NCBI GenBank assembly: GCA_026985525.1
Contig: JALSQI010000027.1
Span: 1 to 46,269 of the forward strand
DNA length: 46,269 bases
DNA from: Archaeoglobaceae archaeon
Lineage (GTDB): Archaea; Halobacteriota; Archaeoglobi; Archaeoglobales; Archaeoglobaceae
Direction of reading: 5' to 3'
In this document: positions 40,582 through 45,584 of the stretch, one piece after another
Position numbering within the stretch: the first letter of the stretch is position 1
How the letters are laid out: the number at the start of each line of letters is the position of its first letter
Notes under the pieces: model-generated
What the model was told of the DNA's origin: nothing
Seen by the model: only the letters and a program-made list of their open reading frames with translations
Database searches by the model: none
Translations under genes and position numbers: made by a program

Positions 40582-40824
40582 TCACCTAATTATTTCTCTA
40601 TATTTATTTTCCACAGTGTTTACCATGTACTTTACATCTGGAAAGTACGTGAATACTTTCTCTTCATCAATTCCAAGCTTTTTTGCCCATTCGTAGAACT
40701 CAGTTAGCTTTTCAAAGAATTTTATGTACGAATCGAGAAAGTCCGTTTTCTTTTTCGAAGATATAGCTTTTTCGAATAATACTCTTAAATCCTGGTACTT
40801 TGGATCTAATTCCATGTATATCAT
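40582..40824 (-). CDS. Unknown 80-aa protein, last gene of the nif operon
   Basis: This small helical, Lys/Glu-rich protein (MIYMELDPKYQDLR at the start, VKYMVNTVENKYREII at the end) is not recognised. It lacks the LWQF-type motif of VnfG/AnfG delta subunits. The start ATG 40824 overlaps the stop of the 99-aa gene (ATGA), with GGAG about 10 bases before it; an in-frame TTG at 40830 is less likely. Tight coupling to nifK and the 99-aa gene suggests a role in nitrogenase function or assembly. Confidence 0.75.
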   Translation of the reverse strand: MIYMELDPKYQDLRVLFEKAISSKKKTDFLDSYIKFFEKLTEFYEWAKKLGIDEEKVFTYFPDVKYMVNTVENKYREIIR

Positions 40825-41120
40825 ACCCAATCAACTCCTTTTTCCAAACAAACTCTTCTTATCTCTTCAATAGTTTCGTCGGGAACATTGAACTTCTTTA
40901 GGTCATCTAAATTTTTTATATTAACTGGTTTTCTGAATGCAGAAAGAAATTCCCCTTCCACGAACTTCGCTACTATCACCGGTATTCCCTTAATTCTCGT
41001 AACCTGAACGAGCAAGTTTGGTTTCGTTTCTTCACCCACGTGAAAAGTAATGTATGCGAAATTTCCATTTTCAGAAATTCTACCAAGCCTGTCGTAGAAC
41101 TTTACCTTTATCACCTTCAC
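40821..41120 (-). CDS. Unknown 99-aa protein following nifK
   Basis: This protein is not recognised. It begins with a beta-rich part (MKVIKVKFYDRLGRIS, then YITFHVGEE and LLVQVTRIKGIPVIVAKF) and ends in a helical part (VPDETIEEIRRVCLEKG). The single cysteine is near the C-terminus. A near-perfect ribosome site, GAGGTGAT, lies just before the ATG, 22 bases after nifK, so strong translation in the nif operon is expected. It resembles neither NifX, NifT nor AnfO as I know them. Confidence 0.8.
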   Translation of the reverse strand: MKVIKVKFYDRLGRISENGNFAYITFHVGEETKPNLLVQVTRIKGIPVIVAKFVEGEFLSAFRKPVNIKNLDDLKKFNVPDETIEEIRRVCLEKGVDWV

Positions 41121-41142
41121 GCTATCACCTCAACTGCCGATT

Positions 41143-42540
41143 TTACTGCTGCTTCTGATCCCAAGGTATGCGCGTGTCGAGTATCGTGTTCACTATCTCG
41201 TCGAAAAGCCTCAAACTGCCCATGTAACCGACTATCGGCCATCTGAAGTGTCCAACTCTATCGTATATCGGAAATCCAATTCTTACGAGACCAATTCCAA
41301 GCTCTTCAGCGAGCTTGGCTCCACCCCTCGGATGTCCGATTAATAAATCAACGCCCTTCTCCTTAACCGACTTCTCGAAGTCCCAGAGGTCGGAGAACTG
41401 AACTTCGAAGCTCACGTCGAACTCCTTGGCTATCTTCTCCATCTCCTGTCTGTAAACCTTCGAAGGCGTTTGGGTGTTGACGACTATTGGCTTAAGCCCC
41501 ATTTCGCAGCAGAACCTCGTTATGGCTATGACGAAGTCAGGATCTCCAAATATACCAACTCTCACATCTTTGGTGTAGTGGACTGTATCGACTATCGCGT
41601 CTATCAGCCTACCTCTCTCATCCAAAAGCCTGTCGGGAATTTCCAAGCCCGTAACCTTCGCCAAATTGATTATGAAGTCGTCCGTGTTCTTTATGCCTAT
41701 GGGCAGTCCGAAGTAAGCTTCCACTCCGAACCTGTTCTTCAAATACAAAGCTCCACTCCCCCCGGCGTGCTGGCATAGTGCGAAGGTCGCCTTTGCGTTA
41801 GCGGCATCGACGAACTCCTCTACGAGAGTCCCACCCTTCGGGTAGTAGGGAAGTTCCCTAATGGGCTCTCTCAGAGGTTGGTAGAGTGTTTCGCTTATGT
41901 CGAAAAGAATTGAGTAATCTTTCTTCTCCTTCAGTCCGAATATGTTTAGAATTCTCTTTATCTCCTCTATGTCCCCCGGATTCACGCCGAAACCGGGAAT
42001 GACGTTTATTATCTTTTCACTCCCCTCATCCTTCTTAGCTAAATGTCCCAAGAATGCCTTCGAAGCGTTGTCGTATCCGGTTACGTGACTTCCCTGATAT
42101 GAAGGGCAGTGAACTGGAATAACTGGCAGTTGAGCCTTCTCCTCTCCCAACTCCTTGGCTATTTTCTTCTTTGCGGCCCTTATGAAAGCCTCTATGTCAT
42201 CCCCTATGGTTTCCGAGGAGCATGTAGTTATCACCGCTATCAAATCGGGATCGTATCTCGCTACCAAATTGAATACGCCTTCGACTAAGTTCTTCATTCC
42301 TCCATAGACTGCGGCGTGTTCGTGGAATGAAGCGACCGCTATGGTTACCGGCTCCCTGAAGTGTCTGTTGAAGGTGTATCTCACGTATGTGCAACAACCC
42401 TGAGAGCCTTGAACGAAAGGAATGCCTCTGTGAACTCCCAGCGTAGCCCACATTGCTCCAATTGGCTGGCAGATCTTGTTGGGATTTATGGTTACCGCCC
42501 TCTGCTTTTGAACGTAGCAGATTTCTCCCATCTCAACCAC
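41143..42540 (-). CDS. nifK: Nitrogenase beta subunit NifK-like
   Basis: This 465-residue subunit is half of the dinitrogenase heterotetramer and shares the P-cluster. Ligands are kept: C24 (KICQPIGA), C49 (GSQGCCTYVR), C107 (VITTCSSETIGDD) and the Ser188 equivalent S147 (CPSYQGSHVTGYD). FNRHFREPV is also conserved. It lacks the long N-terminal extension of Azotobacter NifK and is close in length to AnfK/VnfK. It overlaps nifD by 8 bases; nifE and nifN do not follow. Confidence 0.93.
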   Translation of the reverse strand: MVEMGEICYVQKQRAVTINPNKICQPIGAMWATLGVHRGIPFVQGSQGCCTYVRYTFNRHFREPVTIAVASFHEHAAVYGGMKNLVEGVFNLVARYDPDLIAVITTCSSETIGDDIEAFIRAAKKKIAKELGEEKAQLPVIPVHCPSYQGSHVTGYDNASKAFLGHLAKKDEGSEKIINVIPGFGVNPGDIEEIKRILNIFGLKEKKDYSILFDISETLYQPLREPIRELPYYPKGGTLVEEFVDAANAKATFALCQHAGGSGALYLKNRFGVEAYFGLPIGIKNTDDFIINLAKVTGLEIPDRLLDERGRLIDAIVDTVHYTKDVRVGIFGDPDFVIAITRFCCEMGLKPIVVNTQTPSKVYRQEMEKIAKEFDVSFEVQFSDLWDFEKSVKEKGVDLLIGHPRGGAKLAEELGIGLVRIGFPIYDRVGHFRWPIVGYMGSLRLFDEIVNTILDTRIPWDQKQQ

Positions 42541-43957
42541 TCCTGAGCTCGAACTTCTTCTCTCCTTCCCTCAGAACGTTCCAGATTGGGTGGAAAACTG
42601 CCTTGTATATGTCTCTGGCGAAGTTAACGAACCCTCTGTATGCCACGTAAGGTCCCCTCTCGTATGAGTGGGAGTTTATCGTCGGAACTCCATACTTCCT
42701 GAACAGATACCTCTCTTTAAGCCCCGTAAGCATGAAATCGGGTTTGAACGTCTTTACAGCTTCTTCAAGCTCCAATTCGTTCGGAGCATCGATTATAATG
42801 ACTCCCTTTATTCCAGCCTTCTTCAAATTCCTGTTTATCTTTTCGTAATCCTCTTCATGTCCAAAAGTCGTACACGCAACTACGTAATCTATACCCAAGT
42901 CCTTCATCGCCATAATCCAGTGCCACGTCCTCGGAGCTCCGACGTAGCATAAGCAAGTTAAACCCTCGAACTTCTCCCTGTAAAAATCAAGCTGTGGTTT
43001 TATTGCCTCCATCTCCTCCTTTACTATCTCGTCCACCCTCTCCTTCGGAATGTTCAAAGCCTCTGCAATTCTGTATAGGGATTCGGTCGTTTCCGAAATT
43101 CCGAACATGCTGACTCTTATGAAAGGAACGTTGAACCCATCCTGAATCATCTCCGCTATGTATTCCGCCGATCTCTGGCAGAGAACGATGTTCAGCTTTA
43201 CATCCGGTAGTTTGAAGAGGTCGTCTATCGAGGCGTTTCCAGTGAAAATCGTAACAACCCTACAACCCATCTTTTCGAGCAACGGAATCCAAACCGCAAC
43301 GTCCCAGTCCATGTTGTATTCTCCGATTATCGCGACATCGTAGGGTGTCTTTTCTTCCTCCTTCAGGCACTTCTCCGGAAACTTCTCCCTCGCCTTCCTT
43401 ATGTATCTGTAGAACGTTACGTTGAATACATGATGGCCTTTAGACTGGCTTACCCCAGCGTATCCCGGACTGTTTATCGCTACAACCGGCTTCTTTATCT
43501 CATCCTCCACCTTCTTTGCAACAGCTTCGACGTTATCTCCTATCAGAGCGGTGGGACAGGTGGTGTAGATTATTATGCCCTTAGCATGCGGAAACTCCTC
43601 GTTAGCCTCAATGCAGGCTTTATAGAGCTTCTTCTCTCCCCCGTAAACTATGTCTGATTCTTGCATGTCCGTGGAGAAGCAGTAACGCCTGTGCAGGTCG
43701 TTGTCGCTTAAATTTCTCCTCGTTCCCCAAGTGTAATATCCACAGCCTATCGGCCCGTGAATCATGTGGATGACGTCCTTTATGGGCCCTCCTACAACTC
43801 CTCTCGCTCCAGCAAAAGCGCAACCCCTTTCTGTCAGATCTCCCGGAACGGTATTGGAATTGCAGAGAGGAACTATCTCTTCTTCAGGATCGTAAGCGTA
43901 AATGTGCTTCATCCTCTCCGGAATACACTCATCGCATTTCAGCAAAATAAACGGCAT
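42533..43957 (-). CDS. nifD: Nitrogenase alpha subunit NifD-like (intermediate type)
   Basis: This 474-residue catalytic subunit binds the active-site cofactor. P-cluster cysteines are C46, C72 and C134. Cofactor ligands are C260 (LCQRSAEYI) and H430 (INSHSYERGPY). Q171/H175 (SQSKGHH), R81 and K414 (LKERY) are also in place. The N-terminal half (TWGTRRN, CFSTDMQESDIVYGGEKKL) looks like Mo-type NifD, while LCQRSAEYI and GPYVAYRGFVNFARDIYKAV look like VnfD/AnfD. No delta-subunit gene is adjacent. Metal type is therefore open. Confidence 0.93.
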   Translation of the reverse strand: MPFILLKCDECIPERMKHIYAYDPEEEIVPLCNSNTVPGDLTERGCAFAGARGVVGGPIKDVIHMIHGPIGCGYYTWGTRRNLSDNDLHRRYCFSTDMQESDIVYGGEKKLYKACIEANEEFPHAKGIIIYTTCPTALIGDNVEAVAKKVEDEIKKPVVAINSPGYAGVSQSKGHHVFNVTFYRYIRKAREKFPEKCLKEEEKTPYDVAIIGEYNMDWDVAVWIPLLEKMGCRVVTIFTGNASIDDLFKLPDVKLNIVLCQRSAEYIAEMIQDGFNVPFIRVSMFGISETTESLYRIAEALNIPKERVDEIVKEEMEAIKPQLDFYREKFEGLTCLCYVGAPRTWHWIMAMKDLGIDYVVACTTFGHEEDYEKINRNLKKAGIKGVIIIDAPNELELEEAVKTFKPDFMLTGLKERYLFRKYGVPTINSHSYERGPYVAYRGFVNFARDIYKAVFHPIWNVLREGEKKFELRSG

Positions 43958-43966
43958 AAAACCACC

Positions 43967-44347
43967 TCATATTGCACTTTCTCCACTTTCTCCAGTTCTA
44001 ATTCTAATAGCATCTTCTACAGGTAAAACAAAAATTTTACCATCACCTATATTTCCAGTTCTGTTTACTTTCATGATTATACCCACAACTAAAGGAACAT
44101 CCTCGTCATTCACGACTATTGACAGAAGTCTCTTAGGTATGTATTTCATGTACAATCCCTGCTTTTCTCCCTCTTCCACTATTTTTTTCATGTCTATGAC
44201 GTCGGGCAGGTTGACATCGAGGTAACCTCTTTGTTTACCCCTCCCAAAACACTTCATTACAGTTAAAGCTGGAAATCCGACAGCTTCCAGAGCCTTTGCA
44301 GTCTTGGAGACTTTGTTTGGTCTTATTATCGCTATAATTTCTTTCAA
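43967..44347 (-). CDS. nifI2: Nitrogenase PII-like regulator NifI2
   Basis: This 126-residue PII-family protein has MKEIIAIIRPNKVSKTAKAL, then a T-loop region longer than in NifI1, and NRTGNIGDGKIFVLPVEDAIRIRTGE (cited in part), the PII end motif. NifI1 and NifI2 form a complex that reversibly inhibits dinitrogenase when fixed nitrogen is plentiful and is relieved by 2-oxoglutarate. Its position between nifH and nifD is the usual archaeal one. It abuts nifI1 directly. Confidence 0.93.
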   Translation of the reverse strand: MKEIIAIIRPNKVSKTAKALEAVGFPALTVMKCFGRGKQRGYLDVNLPDVIDMKKIVEEGEKQGLYMKYIPKRLLSIVVNDEDVPLVVGIIMKVNRTGNIGDGKIFVLPVEDAIRIRTGESGESAI

Positions 44348-44665
44348 CTAAATCCCCCTTTCCCCTGTTCTTACCGTATATGCCTCTTCTATGGATTGAA
44401 TGAAGATCTTACCATCTCCGTAATTTCCAGTATAAGCTGAACTCTTTATTAGCTCTACAATTTTCTTTACGTCCTCATCGTTTATTGCAATTAGCAACAT
44501 GACTTTTGGTAGTTCGTCGTAGTAGTATTCTCCAACTTTCAGTCCGCCTTGCTTACCCCTACCGACGACGTCTATTTTTGTAAAAGCTGGAAATCCAGCC
44601 TCACTGAGAGTATCGATTACGTCATCTACTTTTTCTGGTCTTATTATTGCCTTAATAAGCTTCAT
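44348..44665 (-). CDS. nifI1: Nitrogenase PII-like regulator NifI1
   Basis: I choose ATG 44665 (105 residues, starting MKLIKAIIRPEKVDDVID) because all PII proteins start here and AGGATG lies 6 bases upstream; the open frame extends 10 codons further. YTGNYGDGKIFIQSIEEA is the PII C-terminal motif. It partners NifI2 in ammonia switch-off of nitrogenase. It starts 4 bases after nifH. Confidence 0.93.
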   Translation of the reverse strand: MKLIKAIIRPEKVDDVIDTLSEAGFPAFTKIDVVGRGKQGGLKVGEYYYDELPKVMLLIAINDEDVKKIVELIKSSAYTGNYGDGKIFIQSIEEAYTVRTGERGI

Positions 44666-44669
44666 GTTA

Positions 44670-45584
<915 letters not shown>

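Follow-up and report, generated by a model that had tools for sequence, protein, structure and literature searches.

The nif operon and the genes downstream of nifK

The window, meaning the whole stretch of 46,269 nucleotides analysed here, is contig C27 of an Archaeoglobaceae genome (G000; 1.34 Mb, 95% complete). Its nif genes were assigned using Pfam and NCBIfam and run on the minus strand in the order nifH, nifI1, nifI2, nifD and nifK, followed by two small genes, designated X and Y (Table 1). The positions and sizes of X and Y, the ribosome site of X and the ATGA overlap between both genes had been given in a first-pass annotation and were confirmed by reading the sequence directly. The TAA stop codon of nifK (41143-41145, minus strand) is separated from the GTG start codon of X at 41120 by a 22-base gap, while the TGA stop codon of X (40823-40821) and the ATG of Y (40824-40822) overlap as ATGA. 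Counted from this ATG, Y encodes 80 aa; an upstream TTG would give 82.

Table 1. Features of the nif operon in the window
Feature	Position	Strand	Remarks
Y	40582..40824	-	80 aa; ATGA overlap with X
X	40821..41120	-	99 aa; first gene past nifK; sequence read directly
Shine-Dalgarno of X, GAGGTGAT	41124..41131	-	3 bases 5' of GTG; sequence read directly
nifK	41143..42540	-	465 aa; Oxidored_nitro 3.1e-121; closest solved relative 9spz_B (915 bits)
nifD	42533..43957	-	474 aa; TIGR01862 above cut-off; closest solved relative 9spz_A (885 bits)
nifI2 (PII family)	43967..44347	-	
nifI1 (PII family)	44348..44695	-	start common to relatives near 44665
nifH	44670..45548	-	TIGR01287 above cut-off; ATG common to relatives near 45524
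Putative archaeal BRE/TATA element, AAAAAGATTTTTATT	45558..45572	-	upstream of nifH; similar in relatives

A conserved AAAAAGATTTWTATT-like element lies upstream of nifH (45558-45572) and is preceded by TAGTAGTA in most relatives. Judged by its conservation, this BRE/TATA element is probably the promoter of the whole nif operon. Operator patterns of the NrpR type (GGAA-N6-TTCC and GGTA-N3-TACC) were found upstream of none of nifH, Y and nifB.

X and Y had been described as welded to the end of the operon. The spacing between nifK and X is 9-22 bases in five of the seven genomes that carry both genes, and in G042, G036, G038 and G035 the ribosome site of X includes the nifK stop codon (TGAGGTG). 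X is placed for joint translation with NifK, and the coupling of both genes is tight. Besides the window, the ATGA overlap between X and Y was found only in G042; in the other carriers the two genes are separated by approximately 14-130 bases, and the AT-rich gaps of G036 and G043 hold a TATA-like element of their own. Since X and Y are spaced apart in most relatives, the description fits nifK and X better than X and Y.

The first-pass annotation had also noted that archaeal nif operons usually continue with nifE and nifN; here these genes lie in a second locus. Contig C50 of the same genome carries nifB-nifE-nifN together with a gene of the homocitrate/isopropylmalate synthase family (nifV) and an ABC transporter of the molybdate type; the window genome thus has its nifEN. 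The same arrangement was found in G042. In G036, nifB-E-N lies on a separate contig, and in G043 nifB-nifE-nifN lies 3' of X-Y on the same contig.

Conservation and distribution of X and Y, and apparent exchange of nifDK

Orthologues of both X and Y were found in six further Archaeoglobaceae genomes, three of the same genus (G042, G043 and G044) and three of a second (G035, G036 and G038), so that the seven carriers span two genera; the public records behind them are metagenome-assembled genomes of this family. Compared with the window copies, the X proteins are 58-76% identical and the Y proteins 42-70%. The pN/pS values range from 0.11 to 0.43 and point to purifying selection; in most pairs the synonymous sites are nearly saturated. 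On these grounds X and Y are real, conserved genes. At the protein level they evolve several times faster than NifK and NifD. Invariant residues are H27 and C91 in X and, among others, Y3, E5, P8, K9, Q11, F17-E18-K19-A20 and Y60-F61-P62 in Y. X has a single Cys and Y no conserved one; neither has a 2Fe-2S Cys motif.

Two carriers show interrupted reading frames in the operon. The nifD gene of G038 is split by a frameshift (L067 8728-10166), and in G035 nifD, nifK, X and Y contain frameshifts or stops at positions differing from that in G038 (L068 8220-11961), reflecting either sequencing error or decay.

Among 57 Archaeoglobales genomes, 11 gave a NifD-type match; of these, G010 and G021 matched weakly, the contig of G037 ends within nifD, and G040 has a V-type operon only. 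X and Y occur together in seven of the 57, each time immediately 3' of nifK within the nif operon, and in none of the 46 genomes lacking a NifD match. Following profile searches of 394 sampled genomes of the phylum, X and Y were recovered only from the known seven, with one weak part-match each in G041, inside long unrelated reading frames. The widespread homologues without nif genes that would have spoken against a nitrogenase-related function were thus not encountered in these genomes. A scan for X over the contigs of 84,980 species gave matches only in Archaeoglobaceae, and neither gene turned up in the nifDK operons of other families when 4,225 reading frames were searched by HMM without filtering. 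Searches for X in plasmids by tblastn, and pattern scans of viral contigs for X and NifK, returned nothing relevant.

G044 combines a nif operon of the Mo type, which includes X-Y, with a V-type operon (L064 and L069; contigs C77 and C139), whereas G040 (L070), a member of the same genus, has the V-type set only, with nifH and nifI. In both genomes the V-type operon reads D-G-K followed by E and N, and the G product resembles the VnfG delta subunit (TIGR02930 128 and 110 bits, just below cut-off). No X or Y was found in the V-type D-G-K operons of G044 and G040; in G044, which has both systems, X and Y stand only beside the Mo-type set. X and Y are strictly linked to Mo-type nifDK, within the nif operon.

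Sliding DNA identity across nifD-nifK among G000, G042 and G036, which represent two genera, amounts to approximately 86-99% and is mostly 90% or more, whereas the flanking nifH-I1-I2 and X-Y regions are mostly 65-85% identical and host-like in composition. Between G000 and G042 and between G000 and G036, synonymous differences are 0.20-0.25 for nifK and 0.29-0.43 for nifD, against 0.67-0.94 for nifH, nifI, X and Y; the row for a DUF89 gene, being out of frame, was disregarded. In the window, GC content is 47-48% in nifDK and approximately 39% around it; the GC-richer block (41150-43950), compared with L062, L065 and L066, is nearly shared between the two genera. With moderate bootstrap, G036 groups with G000 and G042 in the nifD and nifK trees and falls outside G000, G042 and G044 in the nifH tree. 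Apparently, nifDK alone was swapped between the genera by homologous exchange, ending up flanked by the native nifHI on one side and the native X-Y on the other. Such an exchange would be a natural experiment, in which foreign NifDK apparently works beside native NifH, NifI and X/Y.

Family and fold of X and Y

No Pfam or NCBIfam family reached its cut-off with X or Y. The earlier statement that neither protein looks like NifX, NifT, AnfO or VnfG/AnfG held up in the profile searches. For NifX/NafY/NifY (PF02579, Nitro_FeMo-Co), neither the window proteins nor their relatives gave a match; a PF02579 protein is present elsewhere in the window genome. NifT/FixU, NifZ, NifW and AnfO were likewise not matched in Pfam/NCBIfam, with the window proteins searched to E = 10 and the relatives to E = 1 in Pfam. 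VnfG/AnfG (TIGR02930/TIGR02929) gave no match, and direct profile comparison of Y with the delta subunits of G044 and G040 yielded a probability of 0.7%. The CowN profile (NF033689, 89 positions) was part of the searched library and was not matched.

A TRAM domain (PF01938; OB-like, nucleic-acid-binding) appeared plausible by eye for X, but its hhalign score of 11.3 was below those of several column-shuffled controls (up to 17.3). Weak matches, namely Cohesin for X and both ANTH and the designed repeat proteins 5byo and 4yxz for Y, were judged compositional or below cut-offs. None of the PDB chains was convincingly related by sequence to X or Y.

The AlphaFold2 model of X (pLDDT 79, pTM 0.74) predicts an antiparallel beta meander (strands 2-9, 23-30, 33-43 and 46-53) followed by C-terminal helices (71-77 and 81-93). 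Y is predicted to be all-helical (helices 2-22, 26-49, 54-60 and 62-79; pLDDT 89, pTM 0.77). When the PDB was searched by fold with both proteins, and viral structures with X, no significant neighbour emerged, and no link of X or Y to any chaperone was found by sequence or fold.

Post-nifK genes of thermophilic methanogens and possible roles

The solved proteins closest to NifD and NifK of the window are 9spz/9sq3, at the scores listed in Table 1, with the next solved relatives at 413 and 360 bits, respectively; for NifK the resemblance extends to the C-terminal tail PWDQKQQ. From work cited in PMC13381448, we infer that 9spz/9sq3 is a nitrogenase of hyperthermophilic Methanococcales. In Methanocaldococcus FS406-22, the genes hp1, hp2 and hp3 directly follow nifK and precede a ferredoxin gene (fd); hp1/hp2 homologues were seen only in nif clusters of thermophilic methanogens (PMC8809328). 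Judging from the numbers given there for nifD (0034) and hp4 (0040), hp1/hp2 are probably MFS40622_0036/0037. Deletion of hp1-hp2-hp3-fd left diazotrophic growth unimpaired and shortened the lag, which the authors explain by the cost of expression, and chaperone-like functions under untested conditions were proposed (PMC8809328). In Methanothermococcus thermolithotrophicus, a gene termed 'nifX' lies after nifK; it is not related to NifX of bacteria or of M. maripaludis and is transcribed at the level of nifDK, and its product is a possible member of the complex (PMC9765008).

Set side by side from these descriptions, hp1/hp2 and X/Y are each the first and second gene past nifK. Both pairs lack motifs and are restricted to nif clusters of thermophiles, as far as one phylum and one contig scan with X extend for X/Y. 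They differ in host, FS406-22 being a methanogen (Methanococcales) and the host of X/Y belonging to the Archaeoglobaceae, and in that hp3 and ferredoxin follow hp1/hp2; moreover, FS406-22 lacks nifN, whereas the window genome has a complete nifB-E-N set. The M. thermolithotrophicus 'nifX', compared by description only, resembles X as a single gene directly past nifK and differs in that nifE-nifN come next in the same operon, with no Y-like gene mentioned.

The best explanation, held tentatively and at slightly less than even likelihood, is that X and Y are accessory genes specific to thermophilic-archaeal nitrogenase, most likely orthologues of hp1/hp2, whose products act on NifDK in a conditional, non-essential way. 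The leading hypothesis equates X with hp1 and Y with hp2 on the strength of position, restriction to nif and the relatedness of the NifDK proteins, hp1/hp2 being known here by description; the 'nifX' of M. thermolithotrophicus may likewise correspond to hp1. The two small proteins, X of beta and Y of helical structure, would be made along with NifK and would associate with NifDK, in its apo or mature form, as a pair of chaperones that holds or stabilises it. Such a pair would matter under stresses like high temperature or metal limitation, whereas catalysis as such would not depend on it, and so it would be dispensable in ordinary laboratory diazotrophic growth.

The first-pass annotation had suggested new nitrogenase subunits, assembly or protection factors, and X and Y may act in one of these capacities. 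An essential subunit or maturase, or any essential catalytic or cofactor-synthesis role, becomes less likely in view of the harmless deletion in FS406-22, if X/Y are hp1/hp2 orthologues. As to newness, no known nif accessory family was matched, but the claim is weakened by the unknown post-nifK genes already described in thermophilic methanogens (PMC8809328, PMC9765008). Several observations count against the accessory explanation itself: the faster evolution of X and Y than of NifK and NifD, the exchange of nifDK without X/Y, the deletion without a diazotrophic defect and the lack of a homologue among PDB chains. The lack of a sequence or fold link to chaperones counts against a chaperone pair.

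X and Y could instead be orphan genes of the Archaeoglobaceae that have no kinship with hp1/hp2 and originated, or became established, at this place in the operon on their own. The confinement of hp1/hp2 homologues to thermophilic methanogens in PMC8809328, whose database may not have included these metagenome-assembled genomes, is consistent with such an origin, which is nevertheless somewhat unlikely given that position, order and restriction to thermophile nif clusters are as in hp1/hp2 and that NifDK is closely related. This alternative concerns ancestry and the remaining ones function, and the likelihoods given to the various explanations overlap.

Bacterial NifT and NifY/NafY are also small proteins that are expressed with NifDK and encoded past nifK, the order being nifHDK-T-Y in Azotobacter and Klebsiella; the cofactor ligand of NafY is His121. 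X, with Y, might similarly be a cofactor-insertion or apo-NifDK chaperone that holds apo-NifDK open or passes on FeMo-co, with the invariant His27 of X as a possible cofactor ligand. The gene position recalls the bacterial order, but X and Y differ in lacking a profile match (PF02579 included, though the genome carries this family elsewhere) or a fold match, and hp1/hp2, if orthologous, were deleted without harm, which leaves this role unlikely.

Lower in probability is that X and Y represent two novel nitrogenase-specific families, without homology to anything described including hp1/hp2, in a stoichiometric or transient complex with thermophilic Mo-type NifDK as a functional counterpart of the V/Fe nitrogenase delta subunit. 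Y resembles VnfG/AnfG as a small, largely helical protein, whereas the known G gene sits between D and K.

Protection of nitrogenase from vent inhibitors (CO, O2, sulfide), comparable to that given by CowN or the Shethna protein, would fit small proteins that are made together with NifDK and not needed in ordinary growth. According to PMC8047169, CowN is a small nitrogenase-protecting protein required only when CO is present. X and Y share its small size but not its profile and have no 2Fe-2S Cys motif, and we consider such a function very unlikely.

There is little to recommend a part for X/Y in tuning nitrogenase activity alongside NifI1/NifI2 (ammonia switch-off): nifI1I2 is present in the X/Y operons wherever the upstream part was assembled and the shorter lag of the hp1-fd deletion might reflect loss of a negative factor, but nifI1I2 also occurs in operons without X/Y (the V-type operon of G040; other families), and the lag was ascribed to the cost of expression (PMC8809328). 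Equally doubtful is that X and Y are passengers without a role in nitrogen fixation, as might be supposed from the lack of a positive role for hp1-hp2-hp3-fd in FS406-22, in view of the purifying selection on them and of their occurring, in both genera, strictly together with Mo-type nifDK.

If X and Y are indeed hp1 and hp2, as preferred here, these enigmatic genes would not be a peculiarity of methanogens but would also go with the Mo-nitrogenase of thermophiles in another class of archaea; their occurrence in a second class would make neutrality unlikely. Their role for a hot nitrogenase would then be testable in cultivable diazotrophs, for example M. infernus and FS406-22.

The post-nifK position of the operon is occupied by a different gene set in a genome from another family of the phylum (G363; L120 5249-7370, minus strand), where the genes past nifK encode a Cys-rich, ferredoxin-like protein of 91 aa and then a CBS-domain-like protein.
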